NCBI GenBank assembly: GCA_014859225.1
Contig: JACUUP010000020.1
Location: 1 to 18,134, forward strand
Direction: 5' to 3'
Length of the DNA stretch: 18,134 nucleotides
Origin: Candidatus Aerophobota bacterium
Lineage (GTDB): Bacteria > Aerophobota > Aerophobia > Aerophobales > B3-G15
Below the pieces are notes generated by a model. That model was not told the origin of the DNA and ran no database searches. It saw nothing but the letters and a program-made list of their open reading frames with translations. Position 1 is the stretch's first letter. Each line of letters opens with the position of its first letter. Both the position numbers and the translations under genes were made by a program. This document shows, one piece after another, positions 956-9,601 of the stretch.

Positions 956-1582
956 TCAAATCCAGCCACGATACCCATACCAGACAAAGGCTAAAATCTC
1001 ACGCACAAGTAGCCTTAAATTTCTAAAACTCTGGTAGGCTCCATAGGTGTAGATTTCGCTATTTTTCACGGGTGCAGGCAAAACTTCAATTCCCTTTTGC
1101 TTAAAACAAAGAAGGGCTCTTCTCATATGGTAAGGAGAGGTTACTAAAATTATCTCCCCCTCAATGCGGTAATGCGAAAGAATCTCTTCAACATATAAAG
1201 CATTTTCGTAAGTATTTAAAGAGTAAGGCTCTTTCAATATTGTCCAAGAAGCAATACCTTTACTTAAAACCATCTCATACATCTGGTCAGCTTCCATTTT
1301 ATCATCTTCCCTATCTCCTCCACTCAAGATTAGATATTCTGCAAAACCTAATTTAAAAAGATGAACTGCATAATTTAGCCTCTCCTGTGTGCTTTTCCCC
1401 AGGCTCCCATCAGGGCTTAATCCACCTCCAAGCACAACAATCGCTCGGGCAGGATAAATATCCTCCTCTACAGTTAAGATTTTAGTGAGCTGATACTGGG
1501 TGAAGGGAAGGTATAAAGTAGCAAAAACTATTAGAAATACTATCCCTGAAGTAAATAAAGCTTTCCTTAAGTTTCTGCTCAT
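956..1582 (-). CDS. YdcF/SanA-like DUF218 membrane-anchored protein
   Basis: A 208-residue protein of the DUF218 family (YdcF, SanA, ElyC). Members sit in the inner membrane facing out and affect envelope integrity or polysaccharide handling; the reaction is generally unproven. One N-terminal membrane segment spans about residues 8-27. The DUF218 core follows: AIVVLGGG (47-54), a GKSTQERL motif (62-69), LILSGGDRED (84-93), NTYENA (123-128) and the conserved VTSPYHMRRA (147-156). Length fits a compact full member. The ATG overlaps the hicA stop (ATGA at 1579-1582), so it is translationally coupled to hicBA, an unusual pairing. The first 33 codons recur, about 89% identical, in relics at 3405-3522 and 6819-6941. 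This copy is intact. Confidence 0.8.
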   Translation of the reverse strand: MSRNLRKALFTSGIVFLIVFATLYLPFTQYQLTKILTVEEDIYPARAIVVLGGGLSPDGSLGKSTQERLNYAVHLFKLGFAEYLILSGGDREDDKMEADQMYEMVLSKGIASWTILKEPYSLNTYENALYVEEILSHYRIEGEIILVTSPYHMRRALLCFKQKGIEVLPAPVKNSEIYTYGAYQSFRNLRLLVREILAFVWYGYRGWI

Positions 1583-1803
1583 AGTAGCTCTTCTAACTCT
1601 TTCCTGTTTATACCTGCCTGCTTTAAAATTTCAAATAACGTCCCCTTGGGTAAATCTTTCTTATGAAGAGGAACTATAACTCTTCTTTTAGTCTCCGGGT
1701 GATAGTAAATGTGATGACTTCCTTTGGTCCTATCTAATAAAAATCCTTTTACTTTAATTATGCTGATAATTTTTTGTGGAGTGAGAGAAGGAACCTTAGA
1801 CAT
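1579..1803 (-). CDS. hicA: HicA-family mRNA interferase toxin
   Basis: A 74-residue protein, the usual HicA length. HicA folds like a double-stranded RNA-binding domain and cleaves mRNA when free of HicB. The hallmark is GSHHIYYHPETKRRVIVPLH (about 28-47), with the catalytic-type histidine at position 30. KGTLFEILKQAGI and a KELEELL tail follow. It starts inside the 3' end of hicB (8-nt overlap) and its TGA overlaps the ydcF ATG, giving a three-gene operon hicB-hicA-ydcF. All family signatures are present, so it is probably active. The last seven codons recur in the relic downstream of alaS at about 6939-6960. Confidence 0.88.
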   Translation of the reverse strand: MSKVPSLTPQKIISIIKVKGFLLDRTKGSHHIYYHPETKRRVIVPLHKKDLPKGTLFEILKQAGINRKELEELL

Positions 1804-2029
1804 AAGTCTCTACCATTAGAGTATACTCCAGAGTCTCTTCGTCTGTTGGTATTTCTTCACCGTGTTCCTTTAAACTCTCTACATATAACTCAATAGCTAC
1901 CTTTGCCATTCTTATGGCTTCTTCCACTGTATCCCCGTATGTAACACATCCGGGAAGAGAGGGAACTATCACTGTATAGCCACCCTCAGGTTCTTTTTTT
2001 AGCATAATTCTGTAACTTAATGTTTTCAT
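1796..2029 (-). CDS. hicB: HicB-family antitoxin
   Basis: A 77-residue HicB/UPF0150 protein: MKTLSYRIMLKKEPEGGYTVIVPSLPGCVTYGDTVEEAI is the standard partial RNase H-like opening. MAKVAIELYVESLKEHGEEIP follows, then a short tail with no obvious DNA-binding domain. It is the cognate antitoxin of the overlapping hicA. The order antitoxin-first with an 8-nt overlap is the less common hicBA layout. The ATG has a GAGGTGA ribosome site just upstream. The 5' side is a 70-bp copy of the alaS 3' end whose stop (2059-2061) is only 29 nt from this ATG. This gene may therefore once have been read as the next gene after alaS. Confidence 0.85.
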   Translation of the reverse strand: MKTLSYRIMLKKEPEGGYTVIVPSLPGCVTYGDTVEEAIRMAKVAIELYVESLKEHGEEIPTDEETLEYTLMVETYV

Positions 2030-2058: not shown

Positions 2059-2135
2059 TTACTCTCCAATCATCTTCCTGACAATTTCTGCCAGGCTTTT
2101 AAATGCCTCATTGAGTTTCTCAGGATGAGAGGTTC
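2059..2135 (-). pseudogene. detached alaS 3' end (70-bp exact duplicate)
   Basis: Positions 2066-2135 are identical to 6993-7062, the last codons of alaS. Read on the minus strand they encode SHPEKLNEAFKSLAEIVRKMIG and end with GAG TAA, a natural-looking stop that differs from the MIGKS end of the full gene. Homology stops abruptly at 2135/7062, and an attC-like hairpin begins about 10 nt beyond. The fragment is thus a true gene end separated from its body. It sits directly upstream of hicBA-ydcF, whose relic also follows the full alaS. Confidence 0.85.
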
Positions 2136-2145
2136 TCTAATAATT

Positions 2146-2246
2146 TATTAACGTTTTCGGCATAAAAGAAGTTGCCGAGGCCTGCTCCTGACAGGATCAG
2201 GAGACAATTTGGGCGTAGCACCGTAGCCTTTTATCCGCTGTTATCT
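2146..2246 (+). repeat. attC-like imperfect hairpin, copy 1
   Basis: The outer ends are TTAAC (2148-2152) and GTTATCT (2240-2246). Inside, CGGcATAAAAG (2158-2168) pairs with CTTTTATCCG (2228-2237) and leaves one unpaired C. The centre holds a perfect 7-bp stem, CTCCTGA/TCAGGAG. The plan TAACGTTTTCGG-stem-variable centre-stem-GTTA is shared with 4464-4540, while the stem bases differ but stay complementary. Integron attC sites have such ends, compensating stems and extrahelical bases. Against this, the spacers are unequal (about 9 versus 5 nt) and no integrase is visible. A REP-like element is the main alternative. Confidence 0.4.
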
Positions 2247-2283
2247 GCCGTTGCGGGCATAAATAAAATCGCTCCATGCTGTT

Positions 2284-2673
2284 CTATAGATTCTTTTTTA
2301 TTTCTTTGAGAAATTCCTCTGCAAGTTTAACAGACTCAGAAGCATCTTCAAAAGATAATTTTACTAATTCTTTATAGTCGCCTTCCTGCCTTATCCCAAA
2401 TATCTTGTGCAATATTTTGGAGTAATGCTTATCAATCCTTCCCGTATGCACAAACTCTTTGTCGAATACAGAAATGACACTTATATGTTTAGAGGTCTTT
2501 AGAGTTATATCAGTTTTTACGAAAAGAGATAAAACCGCATAAAACATAGAATAGTATGCTCTGTTTATTATAGACCTTGGGCTAATATTCTCCTCCAACA
2601 TCTTCTTAGCATCAGAAAGGGTTTCTTCTGCCTGATTTAGCCTGTATGTAAAAAGAGCCTCTTTATCTGTCAT
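2284..2673 (-). CDS. HEPN-domain protein (UPF0332-like), partner of the MNT gene
   Basis: A 129-residue all-helical protein. The signature is SPRSIINRAYYSMFYAVLSLF (about 31-51) and, near the C-terminus, IRQEGDYKELV, as in the UPF0332 branch of HEPN proteins. In known MNT-HEPN pairs the HEPN protein is an RNase toxin and the nucleotidyltransferase silences it by adding AMP. The usual Rx4-6H catalytic motif is not obvious, so activity is uncertain. The ATG overlaps the MNT stop (ATGA at 2670-2673), so the two are coupled. The antitoxin-type gene comes first in the operon. An attC-like hairpin lies 38 nt downstream. Confidence 0.8.
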   Translation of the reverse strand: MTDKEALFTYRLNQAEETLSDAKKMLEENISPRSIINRAYYSMFYAVLSLFVKTDITLKTSKHISVISVFDKEFVHTGRIDKHYSKILHKIFGIRQEGDYKELVKLSFEDASESVKLAEEFLKEIKKNL

Positions 2674-2987
2674 ATCCTCACCCCCTCTGTTACAATATTT
2701 TTTACTATTGGAGATACTTTCAATGGTGATTTTTCGATTTCATCCTTCGTAAAAATCAGGGGGGAGATAAAGATAAAATGTTCAAAACCAACTTCCCATA
2801 CTGTATTTAAAATTTTTTCCTTTAACTCTTTATTAAGCGATTTAACCTCAAGGAAAATATCCATATCCGAGTATTCATCGCCATCGCCACGTGCTCTTGA
2901 ACCAAAAATCCGAAAGTCTATCAACTGAACAACTTTAGAAAGCCTATCTTTCAGTTCTTTAGCTATTTCATAATCTCTTTGTTCCAT
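2670..2987 (-). CDS. minimal nucleotidyltransferase (MNT/MntA-like antitoxin)
   Basis: A 105-residue protein with the polymerase-beta-type nucleotidyltransferase motif FGSRARGDGDEYSDMDIFLEV: GSRARG at 29-34 and metal-binding Asp at about 41 and 43. A third carboxylate (EHFIF region) is not clear, as is usual in short MNTs. Members AMPylate the partner HEPN toxin. The start is ATG 2987 behind an AGAGG ribosome site, and the stop overlaps the HEPN start. It is probably expressed with the small gene 3087-3296 from the promoter in the repeat at 3381-3408. Confidence 0.85.
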   Translation of the reverse strand: MEQRDYEIAKELKDRLSKVVQLIDFRIFGSRARGDGDEYSDMDIFLEVKSLNKELKEKILNTVWEVGFEHFIFISPLIFTKDEIEKSPLKVSPIVKNIVTEGVRI

Positions 2988-2990
2988 TCT

Positions 2991-3086
2991 TTACCTCTTT
3001 CTCTGATAGAGCCTTTCGGGCCAGCAATCTTGATATTCCTCACTACAATCGGGATACTGATAGGCAATCTCATGAGGAGTTCTCAC
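2991..3086 (-). CDS. possible 31-residue peptide between two accessory genes
   Basis: The GTG at 3084-3086 directly follows, in the same frame, the TGA of the upstream small gene. The frame stays open for 31 codons (VRTPHEIAYQYPDCSEE..., with two Cys and several aromatic residues) to TAA at 2991-2993, which ends 3 nt before the MNT ATG. It could be translated by termination-reinitiation, or be the original C-terminal part of the upstream protein after a sense-to-stop change. No family is recognised. It may be chance. Confidence 0.3.
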   Translation of the reverse strand: MRTPHEIAYQYPDCSEEYQDCWPERLYQRKR

Positions 3087-3296
3087 TCAAAACATTACTG
3101 CATAGCCTTCAGGAACTGGGGGACCGGCAAAGGTGATATAGACATCATTAAGCCCACGCTTAACTAATTCTTTATCAAAGATTCGTCGATCTTTGTGGTG
3201 AAGGATTGTTTTTCCTTCTGGATTATCACTTTCGTCAAAGGCACGAAAGGCAATCCACTCGCCCTGGTATTTAGTTTTTGCTTCTTCCAGTCTCAT
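3087..3296 (-). CDS. small DUF5678-like hypothetical protein
   Basis: A 69-residue cytoplasmic protein starting MRLEEAKTKYQGEWIAFRAFDE and ending VYITFAGPPVPEGYAVMF. The WIAF segment followed by a small beta-rich domain is reminiscent of DUF5678-type proteins that accompany toxin-antitoxin-like modules, but I cannot confirm the family. I chose ATG 3296 over an in-frame ATG 18 nt upstream because AAGGAGG lies 8 nt before 3296 and the upstream ATG has no ribosome site. It leads the operon with the MNT-HEPN pair, about 78 nt behind the promoter in the 143-bp repeat. Its stop is followed at once by an in-frame GTG frame. Confidence 0.6.
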   Translation of the reverse strand: MRLEEAKTKYQGEWIAFRAFDESDNPEGKTILHHKDRRIFDKELVKRGLNDVYITFAGPPVPEGYAVMF

Positions 3297-3371
3297 TATT
3301 ACTGCCTCCTTCATAATAACATTGGTTCTGCAAAGACCAACAATTTCATTAAAATAACTTATACTTCCTGC

Positions 3372-3514
3372 CTTTGTAATATTATATTCTACCGCAATAA
3401 TAGGTCAAATTTTTGAGGATTTTCCTTCGGTGAGCTGATACCAGGTGAAAGGAAGATACAACGTGGCAAAAACTATGAGAAATGCTATCCCTGAAGTAAA
3501 TAAAGCTTTCCTTA
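3372..3514 (-). repeat. 143-bp direct repeat, copy B (truncated ydcF head plus promoter)
   Basis: Identical to 6786-6928 over 143 bp, same orientation, 3414 bp apart. Minus-strand content: codons for the YdcF N-terminal segment (about 89% identical in DNA to intact ydcF), then a premature stop (3405-3407) and about 30 further nt. The start codon is lost here because similarity ends at 3522, where IS-like sequence begins. Confidence 0.9.
3381..3408 (-). promoter_or_regulatory. sigma70-like promoter in repeat copy B
   Basis: On the minus strand TTGACC (3403-3408) and TATAAT (3381-3386) are spaced by 16 nt: a near-perfect -35 and a perfect -10. It points at the DUF5678-like/MNT/HEPN genes, with a leader of about 78 nt. 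The same promoter is in copy C, upstream of the SIR2 gene. Confidence 0.6.
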
Positions 3515-3520
3515 ATTTTC

Positions 3521-3745
3521 TGTTACGTAAAAGCGATTGTGTCCGCTTTACCCTTTAAGAGCTATAATGGCAAAAAAATCTTAAAGGAGAAATTATGAAG
3601 CGGACAAAACAGGAAAATAGGTTTATCTACTCTGAGGAAATTATTCACCGAGGTAAAATTTTGGACCTACTTATCAAACAGATGATAACTCAATCTCAGA
3701 CAGCTAAGGTAGCTTTGCATTTCAGACAACTTAAATTATATGAAG
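3521..3745 (+). mobile_element. left end of an insertion sequence with transposase fragment
   Basis: Similarity to repeat copies A and C stops at 3522, and TGTTACGTAAAAGCG follows like an IS end. TATAAT (3563-3568) and AAAGGAG (3583-3589) precede ATG 3595. About 45-50 codons then read like the N-terminal helix-turn-helix of ISNCY/IS481-type transposases (GKILDLLIKQMITQSQTAK...RQLKLYE). After about 3745 the frame only continues as the antisense of the PIN-partner gene, so the rest of the transposase and the right end are missing. The IS appears to have inserted into a ydcF head relic and then been cut off by the PIN module. The transposase assignment is by motif memory only. Confidence 0.45.
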
Positions 3746-3753
3746 TGGCGGTT

Positions 3754-3969
3754 TCATCCTATCGTGGACGCTTTCATCTCCTTTTTGAGCTCATCCGCCC
3801 CCCTCTTTATATCCTCTACAATCTCGGAAGGTGTCATCGTGTGCCATTCTATCTCTTTCACATAGCGATAGTAGTGAATGTCCTGTAAGACTTTGCTTCC
3901 CGGAAATTCCCGTTTTACCCTCTTACGTATTTCTTCTTTTTCCTTCTTACCAACCTCTTTCCTTGGCAT
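3754..3969 (-). CDS. partner (probable antitoxin) of the PIN-domain gene
   Basis: A 71-residue highly charged, mostly helical protein. It has a basic N-terminus (PRKEVGKKEKEEIRKRVKREFPG), a central IHYYRYVKEIEWHTMTPSEIVEDI and a lysine-rich tail. It begins 2 nt after the PIN stop, and its AGGAGG ribosome site lies inside the end of the PIN gene, so the two are coupled. Small genes adjoining PIN toxins are usually their antitoxins, although here the toxin comes first. No classical DNA-binding fold is obvious. The last codons run into the junction with the IS remnant, so the natural end may be altered. Confidence 0.6.
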   Translation of the reverse strand: MPRKEVGKKEKEEIRKRVKREFPGSKVLQDIHYYRYVKEIEWHTMTPSEIVEDIKRGADELKKEMKASTIG

Positions 3970-3971
3970 TT

Positions 3972-4439
3972 TTACACCTCCTCCCCGAAGAAATCTTCGG
4001 GTGTTACAATTGTAGGAATAGGAATCCTTAACCTTGCATTAACCTCACGTATCATTTCTTGTGTTCCACGCTTATAAAGATGTCTGAGGTTCCATGTAAC
4101 CAAAAAATCCATCTCTCCAATGCTCGCCGAAGCAAGATGAAGAGCATCACCACGAGGTAAGCGCCTGTGAGATAAATACATATCTGCCAATTTAATAACT
4201 TCTTCCGTCACCTCCAGAACCTCAAAATCTTTCATCAGGTTCTCCAATGCTTTTCGTAGATTCACTTCCACTGTTACTCTGATTTCATCAAGAATCACTT
4301 CTGAGACGTAAACATCAAAATGAGGTAAAATATCTCTCCAAAATTGCCGGGTCAAATCCCTTAAATAAGGAGCCTCTTTCTGAAAATACATGTTTATAAC
4401 TGAACACTCCAAATAAAGCTTCGGTTTCTTTTGCATCAT
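3972..4439 (-). CDS. PIN-domain ribonuclease, VapC-like toxin
   Basis: A 155-residue PIN domain. The first strand carries YLECSVINMYF (9-19), where Glu replaces the usual Asp; I recall a PIN subfamily with YLET/YLEC at this place, so this is probably not a defect. Other landmarks are VSEVILDEI (acidic pair), PRGDALHLASA with the third acidic residue, and FLVTWNLRHL with the conserved Asn. The C-terminal IVTPEDFF is also typical. Such proteins are metal-dependent RNases acting as toxins. It starts at ATG 4439 or the next ATG (4436) and is followed 2 nt later by its partner. The attC-like hairpin copy 2 begins 25 nt upstream. Confidence 0.8.
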   Translation of the reverse strand: MMQKKPKLYLECSVINMYFQKEAPYLRDLTRQFWRDILPHFDVYVSEVILDEIRVTVEVNLRKALENLMKDFEVLEVTEEVIKLADMYLSHRRLPRGDALHLASASIGEMDFLVTWNLRHLYKRGTQEMIREVNARLRIPIPTIVTPEDFFGEEV

Positions 4440-4463
4440 TTATCCTTTTACCCCCATTTCATA

Positions 4464-4540
4464 TAACGTTTTCGGTGTTTGTGAAGTCCGCCGAAGACGG
4501 ATTTGGGGAAGCGTAGCTTCCCACAAACATCGTGTTAGAT
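4464..4540 (+). repeat. attC-like hairpin, copy 2
   Basis: TAAC (4464-4467) and GTTAGAT (4534-4540) bound a long imperfect palindrome. CGGTGTTTGTG (4473-4483) pairs with CACAAACATCG (4522-4532). Inside are TCCG/CGGA and a perfect GGGAAGC-GTA-GCTTCCC stem. GTTAGAT fits the integron R' consensus GTTRRRY, and its complement ATCTAAC fits RYYYAAC. The opposite end (ATATAAC) fits less well. It shares TAACGTTTTCGG and a GAAGT..GCCGA...ATTTGGG centre with copy 1. Confidence 0.45.
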
Positions 4541-4553
4541 GAAGTTGCCAACT
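4534..4553 (+). repeat. left arm of a 20-bp inverted repeat around the SIR2 unit
   Basis: GTTAGATGAAGTTGCCAACT recurs inverted at 6655-6674 with one mismatch (19 of 20). The 2141-bp interval holds only the start-less gene fragment and the SIR2 gene. The arm overlaps the right end of hairpin copy 2. Confidence 0.7.
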
Positions 4554-4567
4554 CCCCATATATCTTG

Positions 4568-5038
4568 TTAAGACTCTTCACGAGCCTTTTGATTAAACAG
4601 CTTAAATTCGGCCTTAAGGATTTCGCAATCTTTTTTGTTTCCTCTACTTACTAAAATAGGGGTAAAAATAGGTGATTTATATTTACGATGAAAGTAAATA
4701 CCGCTTCCTTCCTCATCTATAGTCATATGAACGCTATGTTCATCCCATGGTAAGTATTTTACAACTAAGGAATTGGCTGAGAAAAATTTCTTGAGTTCTT
4801 TATGTTTTTCTTTTTGGACCTTACTATGACTATCATCTTCAGGTCCCACTTCAGCAAGAATCATATTGATTTTAATTCCCTTTTTCTTAATGTCTTCAAA
4901 AACTTGTTTGAATTCATCGCGTAAAATCCATTCGCCTGTTTCTGTGATAACGTTAATTTCCGAAACTTGCTCAAGTTTGTTGCAAAATATAGCCCAAATA
5001 TAGATTAAAATGATTTTATTTTCTGCGTTCTCGCTCTC
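4568..5038 (-). pseudogene. start-less gene fragment, possibly a PLD-like domain protein
   Basis: The frame is open for 156 codons from just after a TAA at 5039-5041 to the stop at 4568. No ATG, GTG or TTG occurs until codon 59 (ATG 4864), and that ATG sits inside coherent protein sequence (GIKINMILAEVGPED). I therefore read it as the C-terminal part of a larger protein whose front was lost or is in another frame; a 20-codon open piece in the neighbouring frame (LDSLYRVNLLSLL...) lies just upstream. A strand-rich IILIYIWAIF, EFKQVFEDIKKKGIKINMIL and HSVHMTIDEEGSGIYF recall phospholipase-D-like folds, with the HxK motif degraded to HxT. This is weak. It follows the SIR2 gene on the same strand, so loss of a partner gene is possible. 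Confidence 0.5.
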
Positions 5039-5154
5039 TTAAAAGAGATAGCAGATTTACTCTATATAAGGAATCAAGCTATTTTGTTCTAAAAGCCTAT
5101 ATGAATCACAGAGCAGGTATTTATGTAGAACTTGAACTAAAACACAAATGTTTA

Positions 5155-6636
5155 TCACAAACCTTCATAGATAAAAGAGCACAAGAAAAAAGTTGCAACA
5201 AACTTGAGCAAGATCCTAATTTCCTCCTGGGCAGATAAAATGGTACGTCGGGTATCTTGATATAATTCGTGGAAGTCTTTGATAATCTTTGATTCATAAA
5301 ATTTAAGGTACAAATAATTATCTATTCTGCCAAAGTCAAAATCAAAATCCCGCATCAGCTCTTCGGTGAGTCCTAATAATAATTGTTCCTTTTCATCATT
5401 TCCATTTAAAATCGAGAACATGCGAAGGACTTCACTAGCAATTGTTCTACAAGAATTGAAAATCGGAATATAGTATGCTTCGGCAGATGTTATGTTTTCA
5501 TTTTTCTTTAAGATGCCTGTATTTACAATTTCTTCAAAAATGTTCTTTATAGTAAATTGAGGCATTTTTTTGCAATAGTTATCTATCCTTTTACACATAA
5601 GAAGTCCCTCTAAGCTAAACATGCCCCTTGTTTTGATAGCATATATTATTGTCTCAAGTTTTAACAAATTCTCGATTGAATCCAAGGCACCCCATTGGCC
5701 AAAATGGTTCCTGAACTTATGTCGCGTGATTGTAGGATAACGTTCCTTATGCTTCTTATGGAGATAATCCGCGAGTTTAACTAAAAAGTTATCAGCGTTA
5801 GCACTAACAAATATACAATTATTTTTTAGAATGCTTTTAGCAAATTTGAACATGTCATTATTGCTTGGGAAATCTTTATTAGTATCCACCCAAAATATTT
5901 TCCTGCCTTCAGTTAATACCAACTTTTTTAGTACCTTTTGAAAGTCAGGATCAGGACAGCTAAAACCTATGATTAGTAAAGCAGCAGAGTCGTTAAAGAT
6001 TTTCTCTAAAAGATCTTGTTTTTCTTTTTCAAATTGCTGGACAGTTTCAAATGTAGGTCTGATAGTAGCAGGATAACTTATTGTTCCATGGGGTTTGATC
6101 AGCAATGGCTTTCGAGGTAATGCACCTTTTCTAAATTCAATTTCTTCAGCTACTTTCTGGAAAATGCTCTTGCTTCTTACCCATTCATAGCTATCTTCGC
6201 CTATTTCATCATCGAGAGAAACTTCCAAACACTCATCAAAGTTGAAAGAAATCACATTGTCAACTAATCTATGGCTAATAAAGTGTGAAATGATTTCATA
6301 GCCCAAAGGGGGGATTACACTAATTTCCGATTTCGGTCTAATTCCTTGCTGTATTAAAAAAAGGTCGATAGGTTTGTTATAAATTTTACTATAAATTGAT
6401 AGTAGTTCTTCTAAACTGCATTCGGAAGGTTCCTTGTTTATATGAGAAAGTGTGTTGACTCGGAGTTGCTTTTGTCCTCCCTGCTCTAATTTTAGGTTCT
6501 CGAGCAATTTTTGTTTTAGTACCGGCACTCCAAATCTATTATAATCGGAGGCTCCGGAACCAACAACAATACTCACCTTGCCTGCTACAAATTGGTCAAC
6601 TAAACTATTCAAGATATTAATATCAATGTCCACCAT
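5155..6636 (-). CDS. SIR2-domain protein, probable NAD-consuming defence effector
   Basis: A 493-residue protein with an N-terminal SIR2-like domain. VSIVVGSGAS (21-30) is the Rossmann NAD loop, SFNFDE (130-135) matches the conserved (T/S)xNxD motif, KPHG (181-184) has the catalytic histidine, and IIGFSCPDPDF (222-232) the second glycine-serine loop. SIR2 domains of this divergent type, lacking the sirtuin zinc module, act in anti-phage systems by degrading NAD. Residues about 300-493 are helical and unassigned, probably a sensor or oligomerisation region. The gene starts at ATG 6636 behind GGAGAGG. The repeat-borne promoter at 6795-6822 reads into it with a leader of about 150 nt. All key residues are present. 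The trigger and partner are unknown; the next gene is broken. Confidence 0.75.
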   Translation of the reverse strand: MVDIDINILNSLVDQFVAGKVSIVVGSGASDYNRFGVPVLKQKLLENLKLEQGGQKQLRVNTLSHINKEPSECSLEELLSIYSKIYNKPIDLFLIQQGIRPKSEISVIPPLGYEIISHFISHRLVDNVISFNFDECLEVSLDDEIGEDSYEWVRSKSIFQKVAEEIEFRKGALPRKPLLIKPHGTISYPATIRPTFETVQQFEKEKQDLLEKIFNDSAALLIIGFSCPDPDFQKVLKKLVLTEGRKIFWVDTNKDFPSNNDMFKFAKSILKNNCIFVSANADNFLVKLADYLHKKHKERYPTITRHKFRNHFGQWGALDSIENLLKLETIIYAIKTRGMFSLEGLLMCKRIDNYCKKMPQFTIKNIFEEIVNTGILKKNENITSAEAYYIPIFNSCRTIASEVLRMFSILNGNDEKEQLLLGLTEELMRDFDFDFGRIDNYLYLKFYESKIIKDFHELYQDTRRTILSAQEEIRILLKFVATFFLCSFIYEGL

Positions 6637-6654
6637 TATCTTACCTCTCCATTA

Positions 6655-6674
6655 AGTTGGCAATTTCATCTAAC
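6655..6674 (-). repeat. right arm of the 20-bp inverted repeat
   Basis: The inverse of 4534-4553 with one mismatch. It lies 18 nt upstream of the SIR2 start codon, so it forms part of that gene's 5' leader. I found no direct target-site duplication outside the two arms. Positions 6675-6785 hold nothing else I can name apart from a short AGGTTTCACCT palindrome. Confidence 0.7.
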
Positions 6675-6785
6675 TTAAAATAACCGAAGTACTTTGTTTA
6701 TGCACCATTTAGGTGAAACCTCAAATTGCAACTTTTTGTTGTCATTTTCCCCCAAAATCTAAAGGACTTTTAATTCGTTCCATAT

Positions 6786-6928
6786 CTTTGTAATATTATA
6801 TTCTACCGCAATAATAGGTCAAATTTTTGAGGATTTTCCTTCGGTGAGCTGATACCAGGTGAAAGGAAGATACAACGTGGCAAAAACTATGAGAAATGCT
6901 ATCCCTGAAGTAAATAAAGCTTTCCTTA
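6786..6928 (-). repeat. 143-bp direct repeat, copy C
   Basis: Identical to 3372-3514. Here the similarity to the intact ydcF/hicA junction continues to about 6960, so this copy is the more complete parent type. It carries the same promoter. Confidence 0.9.
6795..6822 (-). promoter_or_regulatory. sigma70-like promoter in repeat copy C, reading toward SIR2
   Basis: TTGACC (6817-6822), 16 nt, TATAAT (6795-6800) on the minus strand. It is downstream of alaS and upstream of the SIR2 gene, and no other promoter-like pair as good lies between it and ATG 6636. Confidence 0.6.
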
Positions 6929-6960
6929 CCTTTCTGCTCATAGCAGCTCTTCTAACTTAT
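6819..6960 (-). pseudogene. hicA-tail/ydcF-head relic downstream of alaS
   Basis: Minus strand: GTTAGAAGAGCTGCTATGA keeps the last hicA codons (LEELL) and the same ATGA overlap with a ydcF start as at 1579-1600. The ydcF frame then runs 40 codons (MSRKVRKALFTSGIAFLIVF...TEGKSSKI) and stops at 6819-6821. It matches intact YdcF for about the first 33 residues. The rest of ydcF, most of hicA and all of hicB are gone. A 40-residue membrane peptide could still be made, but nothing suggests it is functional. Confidence 0.8.
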
Positions 6961-6982
6961 TTGACCCAGAGTGTTTACAATC

Positions 6983-9601
6983 TTAGCTCTTCCCAATCAT
7001 CTTCCTGACAATTTCTGCCAGGCTTTTAAATGCCTCATTGAGTTTCTCAGGATGAGAGGTTCCTCCCTGAGCAAAATCCCATCTTCCCCCTCCGCTTCCT
7101 CCCGTTAAAGAAGAGAGTTCTTTTATCAATTTATCTGCTGGCAGGTCTTTTCGCTTAGAAGCAACAACTATGAAGGCTTTTTTCTCATCTGAGGAGGCAA
7201 GCGCAACCACAGCTTCCCCTAACTTATCTTTTAGCCTCTCGGCAGCCTGGCGCAAAGCTTTAGATGAGATATCCTGAACGATTCCCGCACACACTTTAAT
7301 CCCTTCAATATTTTGTGCCTGGGATGCTATTTCCTGAATCCTATTTTCTAAAAAACCCTCCTGTATCTTATCCAGTTTATTCTTTAAATCAGCAATATGT
7401 TTATCTTTTTCTTTGAGCTTATCAATAATTTCATCCTCTGAAACAGAGATGACCTCTGTTATATTTTCCAATTTATCGCTTTTCTCCTGCAACCACAAAA
7501 AAGCTTTCTCTCCACAGAAGGCTTCAATCCTGCGAATTCCCGCGGCAACCCCACTCTCGGATACAATCTGGAATAGCCCTATCTGACCACTTCTAAGAAG
7601 ATGGGTTCCTCCACACACCTCCATACTAAAATCATCCACCTTTACCACCCTAACCTTCTCTTTGTACTTTTCCTCAAAAAGTGCAATTGCCCCCAGGGTA
7701 TGTGCTTCCTCAAGACTCATCTCGTAAATTTCAACAGTTAAATCTTCTCTTATCTTTCTATTAACCAAAAGGCAAATGTCTTTTAAAGCTTTTTTTTCCA
7801 CGGGCGAAGGGTAAGTAAAATCAAAGCGCAACCTCTCCTCATCTACTAAAGAACCGCTCTGTTTCACATCTTCTCTTAGAATACTACGCAGGGCTGCATG
7901 CAGAAGATGGGTAGAGGTGTGGGAACGGGCAATAGATAGTCTTTTTTCCTCATCAACCTGCATTTTTACCTCATCTTTTCTCTTAAATTCACCTTGAAGA
8001 ACCTTTATATGATGCAAGATAACATCTCCCCTCCTCTGGACATAAAGCACCCTACCTTTTGCTTTAGCACCCACTATTTCTCCTGTATCTGATATTTGAC
8101 CACCACCTTCAGGGTAAAAGGGTGTCCTGGAAACTACCAGTTCTCCTTCTTCGCCTTCTTCTATCTGCTCGTGTATTTTTTTATTTTTAATTATAGCAAG
8201 GATAATCCCTTTCAGGCTAACTTTTTCATAACCTGCAAATATAGCTCCCTTTCCCCCGCATGAGCTTTTCTCTATTTCCCTGATTAAGGAAGGGTCATAT
8301 TCCTCGTATATTCCTTTAACAAAACTTAGCCGCGCTTTTCTTCTTTGCTCTTCCATGCAGCGTGTAAAACCTTCCTCATCTAACTTTAATCCGGCTTCAA
8401 AAGCTATCTCCTGCGTAAGCTCCAGAGGAAACCCGTAAGTATCATACATCCGGAAAGCAGTATCTCCAGATAAAATTTTCTTGCCAGAACTTTTTAAGTC
8501 TCTAATCTCATCCTCCAGGATAGATAATCCCCTGGAAAGAGTAATTTGAAAGCTCTCCTCTTCTCTTTTTATTATCTCCTGGCACTTATTTTGTTTTTTT
8601 TCAATTTCAGGATAAGACTTTCCCATCATTTGATTAACTATCAACACCCCTTGATAAAGAAACGGCTCATTTAATCCCAGTCTTCTTCCGTAGCGAGAAG
8701 CTCTACGCAAAACTCTTCTGACAACATATCCCCTACCCGCATTTGAAGGTAAAATTCCTTCCCCTAATAAAAAGACAAGCCCGCGCAGGTGATCACTTAT
8801 CACCCTTAAAGCCTTTTTATCGCAGACAGATGCAGGAGAAATTTCTTCCACCCAACTGTAAAGAGGAAGAAAAAGGTCAGTGTGATAATCATCAACTACC
8901 CCCTGAAGAACTGTAGCCATCCTTTCAAGTCCCATTCCTGTATCTACATTTTTATCAGGTAAGGGGGAAAGTTTGCCTGATAAGTCCCGGTTATACTGGA
9001 TGAATACAAGATTCCATATCTCCACCCATCTTGAACACTTATTACACCCGGGCTCACATCCATTAAGACAACCCATTTTCTCTCCCCGGTCAAAAAAAAT
9101 CTCTGTATCAGGACCACAGGGACCAACTTCTGCTGCTGACCAAAAATTATCTTCCTCACCTTTTCTCACTATCTTTGATGCAGGAAAACCTAACTTTTTC
9201 CATATAGAAGCTGTTTGTTCATCTTCTTTAAATATAGTTACCCATAACCTATTCTGTGCTATATCAAACTCTCCTGCAACAAGCTCCAGAGCCCACTTGC
9301 AAGCCTCATCCTTAAAATAATCTCCGAAGGAGAAGTTACCCAGCATTTCAAAGAAGGTGTGATGGTAAGAGGTTTCTCCCACTTTTTCCAGATCATTGGT
9401 GCGAAAACACAGCTGACAGGAAGTGATACGAGATGCGGGTGGGTTTTTTTCTCCCAGGAAAAATGCCTTAAAGGGAACCATACCTGCTATGGTAAAAAGA
9501 AGTCCTTCCTCCTCTGTTGCAAGAGGGGCAGATGGTTGCACAAGATGCCCTTTGTTCTTAAAAAATTTTAAGAATTTAGCTCTTATCTCATCACCCTGCA
9601 T
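6983..9601 (-). CDS. alaS: alanyl-tRNA synthetase
   Basis: An 872-residue protein, full length for AlaRS, which charges tRNA-Ala and removes mischarged serine and glycine. The class II catalytic core opens with EIRAKFLKFFKNKGH and includes SYHHTFFEMLGNFSFGDYFK (78-97) and VDTGMGLERMATVLQG. The editing domain has HTSTH (561-565) and CGGTH (663-667), the zinc-binding quartet. The C-terminal DHHA1-type domain carries GGSGGGRWDFAQGG (about 833-846). The start ATG 9601 has a GGGAGG ribosome site, 24 nt after priA. It ends the operon. The last 70 coding bases are duplicated at 2066-2135. Confidence 0.97.
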   Translation of the reverse strand: MQGDEIRAKFLKFFKNKGHLVQPSAPLATEEEGLLFTIAGMVPFKAFFLGEKNPPASRITSCQLCFRTNDLEKVGETSYHHTFFEMLGNFSFGDYFKDEACKWALELVAGEFDIAQNRLWVTIFKEDEQTASIWKKLGFPASKIVRKGEEDNFWSAAEVGPCGPDTEIFFDRGEKMGCLNGCEPGCNKCSRWVEIWNLVFIQYNRDLSGKLSPLPDKNVDTGMGLERMATVLQGVVDDYHTDLFLPLYSWVEEISPASVCDKKALRVISDHLRGLVFLLGEGILPSNAGRGYVVRRVLRRASRYGRRLGLNEPFLYQGVLIVNQMMGKSYPEIEKKQNKCQEIIKREEESFQITLSRGLSILEDEIRDLKSSGKKILSGDTAFRMYDTYGFPLELTQEIAFEAGLKLDEEGFTRCMEEQRRKARLSFVKGIYEEYDPSLIREIEKSSCGGKGAIFAGYEKVSLKGIILAIIKNKKIHEQIEEGEEGELVVSRTPFYPEGGGQISDTGEIVGAKAKGRVLYVQRRGDVILHHIKVLQGEFKRKDEVKMQVDEEKRLSIARSHTSTHLLHAALRSILREDVKQSGSLVDEERLRFDFTYPSPVEKKALKDICLLVNRKIREDLTVEIYEMSLEEAHTLGAIALFEEKYKEKVRVVKVDDFSMEVCGGTHLLRSGQIGLFQIVSESGVAAGIRRIEAFCGEKAFLWLQEKSDKLENITEVISVSEDEIIDKLKEKDKHIADLKNKLDKIQEGFLENRIQEIASQAQNIEGIKVCAGIVQDISSKALRQAAERLKDKLGEAVVALASSDEKKAFIVVASKRKDLPADKLIKELSSLTGGSGGGRWDFAQGGTSHPEKLNEAFKSLAEIVRKMIGKS

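Follow-up and report, generated by a model that had tools for sequence, protein, structure and literature searches.

A broken integron between two alaS ends in a Candidatus Aerophobota contig

Among described remnants of integrons, clusters of attC sites lacking integrases (CALIN) are defined by at least 2 attC sites less than 4 kb apart (PMC9668308), while in Treponema and archaeal integrons intI is transcribed towards attI (PMC3607928, PMC9668308); integrons have also been reported in phages (PMC9892861). An additive structure with an orphan 3' stub has been proposed for homology-facilitated illegitimate recombination at Vibrio type VI secretion system (T6SS) loci (PMC5361080). The locus described here occupies part of an 18,134-nucleotide window, the entire contig C47 of a Candidatus Aerophobota metagenome assembly (G000; 1.8 Mb, 273 contigs, 91% complete). 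Judged by sequence comparison, the DNA lying between two alaS ends in this window is a broken integron, that is a degenerate array of CALIN type with traces of its head, and these integron remains were most likely joined on together with the second alaS end. Comparisons were made across the phylum in 17 genomes of 12 genera belonging to a single order (G000 and 16 relatives); a scan of named genomes with AlaS returned only distant relatives (best 42%).

The two alaS ends are identical over 70 bp (2066-2135 and 6993-7062), as had been reported in an earlier note made from the letters of this sequence, and these are the only two copies in the assembly. An exact match of this length within 18 kb is not chance. 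The copy codes for AlaS residues 847-871 and its right end is abrupt at 2135/2136, with no sequence in common past the repeat. Both alaS ends look like natural gene ends, with the terminal residues and stop positions that the note had read (Table 1), and each is then followed by a different allele of one neighbourhood. Between them the island runs from a truncated integrase through an attI-like site to SIR2 and PIN cassettes with attC on the same strand, then to toxin-antitoxin genes and attC2.

That no integrase was visible in this interval, as the note had it, proved wrong, because 14 C-terminal codons of one survive at 6742-6786; the stretch 2136-6992 does lack any intact integrase open reading frame (ORF), as well as any excisionase or relaxase gene. 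When island DNA was searched against the phylum, the stretch 6656-6787 recurred in five other genomes, and the region of the remnant matched integrase-tail and attI regions in G007:C71 and G010:C15 (87% and 79% at the DNA level). These two matches open with a tyrosine recombinase C-terminus (..LLGHKSSKTTEIYTHVSQ.DIG.IKSPLDFG) and, beyond the recombinase end, include a site where a direct repeat occurs twice, as GCATAAACGAAGTAnTTCG and ..TTTTAAGTTA; the window has lost one of these two direct repeats of relatives (GCATAAACGAAGTAnTTCG). The attI-like site is conserved at approximately 10 loci in the five other genomes, with integrase C-termini directly upstream, and over seven loci of relatives the pairwise identity, 84% as far as GTT, falls to 53% in the next 12 nt. 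The window shows the G/TTRRRY boundary expected of attI (GTTAGAT), likewise conserved upstream and variable after GTT. Such conservation up to GTT followed by variability gives the site the look of an attI, a fixed platform with differing cassettes inserted at G/TT.

No protein in G000 or the 16 relatives matched the TIGR02249 IntI model above its cut-off, and a search for a complete integrase across the phylum returned XerC/D-like and phage-type proteins and truncated C-termini, with no intact integron integrase among them. Integrase pieces of the attI-associated kind are all C-terminal fragments, every head seen in the phylum being truncated; the piece in G010:C131 has an N-terminal part with a WHPDKKYW motif joined to an integrase C-terminus. 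The closest complete protein inspected, encoded on a Chryseobacterium plasmid and named 'site-specific tyrosine recombinase/integron integrase', has the same N-terminal domain and by eye is without the IntI patch, unlike a Kovacikia IntI. Viral contigs contain many tyrosine recombinases, none of them linked to this attI.

The two predicted attC sites of the window lie on the same strand 2.2 kb apart, within CALIN spacing, and both have predicted R''/R' and L''/L' pairing; of the intact intI with IntI-specific patch that marks a complete integron, 14 codons are left. A rule-based search (R''/R' plus an exact L stem) was complemented by a covariance model (reporting threshold E <= 0.01) built from six aligned attC sites, which share identical spacing. 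In the L''/L' helix of this alignment compensatory changes occur at 6 of the 8 pairs and are lost when the partner is slid by 1-3 columns, with 81% of alignment cells paired versus 69% in shuffled and 30-47% in slid alignments. The model gave 43 matches, most of which are not seeds, in 13 of the 17 genomes and all 12 genera (top non-seed match, E = 1e-17). Its score for attC1 is E = 2e-21, but attC1 is a seed sequence (and 90% identical to a site in G007:C19); that for attC2 is E = 3e-12, with a shortened attC2 core among the seeds. The two window sites were the sole matches among the 150 of 220 first-look candidates scored in G000, so a weak third could be missed. BLAST with each attC alone gave no matches in its own genome, and a structural model was therefore needed. 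One attC, in G005:C101, stands just after a Schlafen/AlbA ORF that itself follows a truncated integrase. Many attC-bearing contigs of the phylum end within a few hundred bp of the site, so that integrons are probably under-assembled and complete ones may be missing. In IMG/VR contigs (L297-L370) the attC model has 22 weak matches (E 2e-6 to 0.05) in the neighbourhood of phage tyrosine recombinases; each is upstream of the recombinase and on the opposite strand, a striking strand bias.

Table 1. Features of the window, with positions, strand and basis of assignment
Feature	Position	Strand	Basis
alaS, intact, 872 aa, ends MIGKS then stop; holds repeat copy 6993-7062	6983-9601	-	
alaS 3'-end copy (2066-2135), ending MIGE at a stop of its own 29 nt before hicB	2059-2135	-	
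Tyrosine recombinase C-terminal remnant of integron integrase type, 14 codons (DMERIKSPLDFGGK, then stop), cut at relic 1 junction	6742-6786	-	
attI-like site; insertion point between G and TT at 6674/6673	6655-6741	-	alignments to relatives
attC1 (predicted): R''=ATCTAAC, R'=GTTATAT, 8-bp L''/L' stem TGTTTGTG/CACAAACA	4461-4540	-	rule-based finder; covariance model
attC2 (predicted): R''=AGATAAC, L''/L'=GATAAAAG/CTTTTATG, R'=GTTAATA	2146-2246	-	covariance model
Cassette 1: SIR2-like gene (ORF 5155-6636) and ORF 4568-4864; ends in attC1	4467-6673	-	
247-bp element with perfect 20-bp terminal inverted repeats, in 3' part of SIR2 ORF	4966-5212		
Cassette 2: PIN-domain gene (3972-4439) and small ORF 3754-3969	3736-4466	-	PIN E = 3e-5
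MntA-like nucleotidyltransferase (2670-2987) and HEPN (2284-2673) toxin-antitoxin pair	2284-2987	-	before attC2
Relic 1: last hicA' codons and first 32 ydcF' codons, then ~55 nt with promoter-like site	6787-6957	-	
Relic 2: another ydcF' fragment (99% identity to relic 1), same promoter-like site (3408-3381)	3373-3522	-	
Transposase remnant, N-terminal part only, ORF from 3595	3523-3715	+	76% DNA identity to N-terminal part of a G008:C107 transposase
hicB (1796-2029), hicA (1579-1803), ydcF/DUF218 (956-1582), intact	956-2029	-	

Both cassettes have inverted ends of their own, as expected because a cassette start and its R'' derive from one attC in the circular form. In cassette 1, whose SIR2-like gene matches SIR2_2 (E = 4e-11), these are 20 nt long (4534-4553 and 6655-6674; start GTTAGATGAAATTGCCAACT, end AGTTGGCAACTTCATCTAAC before attC), and in cassette 2 they are 17 nt (3736-3752 and 4450-4466; start GTTATATGAAATGGGGGT, end ACCGCCACTTCATATAA where attC stops), its attC being cut off after the start of R'' (CACTTCATATAAT). 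A third gene set, comprising a small ORF (3087-3314) upstream of the MntA-like/HEPN pair, precedes attC2. The earlier description of the island as holding only defence genes, toxin-antitoxin genes and repeats holds in that such genes are there, and leaves out the attI- and attC-type sites, the transposase remnant and the 247-bp element. The latter interrupts the SIR2-like gene and has no second copy in the assembly; the SIR2 frame stays open past it (SEINVITETGEWILRDEF...), so SIR2 may once have been longer. ORFs by the attI and attC sites of relatives include a UG21-like reverse transcriptase, bSEFIR, restriction-modification genes, LmuB and a MazF-like toxin, and a SIR2-TPR protein lies between two attC sites. 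The trio hicB-hicA-ydcF was considered as a final cassette and rejected, as neither an attC nor, downstream, an inverted counterpart of its presumed start was found. A second HicB-like gene lies at 541-828 on the plus strand, with no adjoining hicA recognised.

Sequence from hicA and ydcF follows both alaS ends on the same strand, intact at one and a relic at the other, an observation of the earlier note that the alignment bears out: over 6844-6957 relic 1, with the end of hicA and 32 ydcF codons, matches the intact genes (hicA-ydcF span 956-1803) at 102 of 114 nt (89%). The relic that the note placed at the alaS-proximal end is, beyond that, present twice (6786-6936 and 3372-3522, 99% identical). 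Differences between relic and intact ydcF number 2, 2 and 7 at codon positions 1, 2 and 3, and this predominance of third positions indicates that they arose while both copies were coding, in separate lineages. Such coding-constrained divergence is easier to reconcile with foreign DNA joined on at the alaS end than with a tandem duplication that eroded. The alaS copy, with 0 differences in 70 positions as against 12 in 114 for ydcF (Fisher p = 0.004), would so be more recent, or better conserved, than the ydcF pair. Each ydcF' relic carries a promoter-like site, as judged by consensus match only (in relic 1 TTGACC-N16-TATAAT, 6822-6795), from which cassettes may be expressed.

Relic 2 is adjoined by an apparent further attI fragment (GTTATTTTAATGAAATTG), which suggests a duplication of the integron head itself. 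Two minus-strand stretches, 3335-3371 and 3715-3750, also resemble attI ends (GTTATTTTAA-TGAAATTG; ATTTAAGTTGTCTGAAAT), and the similarity suggests that broken integron heads in the island number at least two.

The order in relatives is alaS and then, encoded on the opposite strand, tRNA-Thr (TGT), cysS-ispF-ispD and the genes beyond. The gap between alaS and the tRNA measures 33-62 bp in G001, G013 and G008, 4.6 kb with restriction-modification genes in G003, and 6.2 kb with transporter genes in G004; being empty or filled with unrelated accessory genes, it is an insertion hot spot, and the island of G000 lies in it too. None of these insertions has an alaS repeat, which is found in G000 only, and hicB-hicA-ydcF is absent beside alaS in every relative with a readable flank. 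The empty site that the earlier note proposed to look for, with alaS directly joined to hicB-hicA-ydcF, was accordingly not seen in the relatives examined, where alaS faces tRNA-Thr and cysS. In G000 itself cysS lies at the end of another contig (C175), which breaks off within an 18-bp tandem repeat (L149:7927-8008; CCTGTCCCTTTTGTCATG), 82 bp beyond the gene; the repeat probably caused the assembly break, and, cysS being on a separate broken contig, the interval beyond alaS in G000 probably comes to 7 kb or more. At the same hot spot in G003 (L128:7625-9214) a DNA methyltransferase begins with the N-terminal domain of the integron-type integrase (62% over 29 aa), the same N-terminal piece as in G010:C131, a possible gene fusion. 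In G009 exactly 119 bp from the 3' end of alaS are common to two contigs (L130 end, L131 end), of which one stops at the alaS stop codon and the other enters a glycosyltransferase that begins within the 119 bp; the alaS end of this genome may be duplicated or strain-variable as well.

We think it rather probable that a decayed integron came to lie at alaS by homology-facilitated illegitimate recombination, which left the old alaS tail as a stub before hicB; the joining step is one that we infer. A related strain or species would have had alaS-hicA'-ydcF' with an integron sitting inside ydcF', into which the cassettes had probably moved earlier by attC x attI recombination. A piece of this donor DNA would have paired with the resident alaS through homology, and its far end, just past attC2, would have been joined illegitimately at 2135/2136, ~75 bp before the resident alaS stop. 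The whole alaS would thereby be kept with the donor end (MIGKS), and the resident 70-bp tail (MIGE) would be displaced downstream as a stub together with hicB-hicA-ydcF. Having lost its integrase, the array is now immobile except by two routes: an integrase supplied in trans, or recombination of one 70-bp repeat with the other, which would excise it and restore alaS-hicB. An earlier proposal of insertion restoring alaS with an imported tail survives in part, as accessory DNA entered at the 3' end and left alaS whole with a new tail, whereas the content is integron-derived and bears no sign of site-specific integration. This conclusion must be weighed against several points: neither the donor genome nor an empty site was found, the integrase remnant is too short to prove IntI identity, and lineages 11% apart in ydcF should also show differences within the 70-bp alaS repeat, failing a crossover at that very place or a much stronger conservation of alaS.

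Its main rival, which we regard as unlikely, is a late copy: with the array already between alaS and hicB, the 70-bp alaS end would have been copied by template switching or ectopic repair. In its favour, the copy has a sharp start 16 nt past the attC2 crossover point and shows no difference where other repeats have diverged, relic 2 (99%) being another recent copy; such an event nevertheless needs a chance stop two codons on, on the right strand and at operon-like spacing to hicB, and leaves the hicA'/ydcF' allele at the intact alaS end unexplained. Those 16 nt match nothing, and a direct joining of attC2 to alaS by the integrase was discarded because its crossover would fall 16 nt before the copy. 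A tandem duplication with later erosion had been offered in the earlier note. Taken as a duplication of alaS-3'/hicB/hicA/ydcF within one lineage, after which the near copy decayed and the integron invaded it, this would account for hicA/ydcF sequence after both ends on one strand, but it fits poorly with the unequal divergence of alaS and ydcF and with the third-position bias, and being already disfavoured on these grounds is improbable. An assembly artefact in which strain variants of the alaS end were joined through the 70-bp overlap is more improbable still: the source is a fragmented metagenome assembly and in G009, too, contigs with a shared end break at the alaS end, but 70 bp is below usual final k-mers and the flanks make a consistent array. 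Least probable is a site-specific integrative element that used the alaS 3' end as attB and restored the gene. Direct repeats at both ends and an intact gene end do resemble integration at a gene's 3' end; against this, the sole recombinase trace is an integron-type C-terminus beside its own attI, 200 bp inside, the interval has no integrase, excisionase or relaxase gene, the alaS tail was not found in viral contigs, and insertions in relatives are without the repeat. Plain duplication of an attachment site at alaS was rejected, there being no integrase and no repeat in relatives.

The island belongs to a class that is already known, and what is of use is the collection of attI-like and attC sites from across the phylum, no description of which was found in the open-access papers to which our literature search extended. 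A seemingly integrase-free defence island can thus be an integron remnant revealed only by phylum-wide comparison, and this one illustrates how an essential gene can take on foreign DNA at its end and remain unharmed. It is doubtful, though conceivable, that the phylum has its own defence-stocked integron lineage, with an Xer-like recombinase that bears an extra N-terminal domain and no IntI patch, and with exchange proceeding without canonical IntI; all heads seen are broken, as if loss of the integrase had been repeatedly selected. Should the phylum's recombinase turn out to have no IntI patch, what counts as an integron integrase would have to be reconsidered.

Set beside the described systems, the island resembles CALIN in its two attC sites, its same-strand cassette genes and its lack of an intact intI, and departs from them in keeping the last 14 integrase codons and an attI-like site. 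The remnant lies directly upstream of that site and in the direction of the cassettes, as in Treponema-type and archaeal integrons, but the integrase is cut short in this head as in all others seen in the phylum, and the region of the IntI patch is missing. With its SIR2 and PIN cassettes, and with defence genes by the sites of relatives, it recalls sedentary chromosomal integrons carrying anti-phage and toxin-antitoxin cassettes, although the arrays are short, broken and scattered over contigs instead of forming one long array. The alaS arrangement itself is like that of the orphan 3' stubs of Vibrio T6SS loci (PMC5361080), where a whole gene and new downstream DNA are followed by a leftover 3' fragment with the old downstream genes, except that here a housekeeping gene serves as anchor and what was added is an integron remnant.

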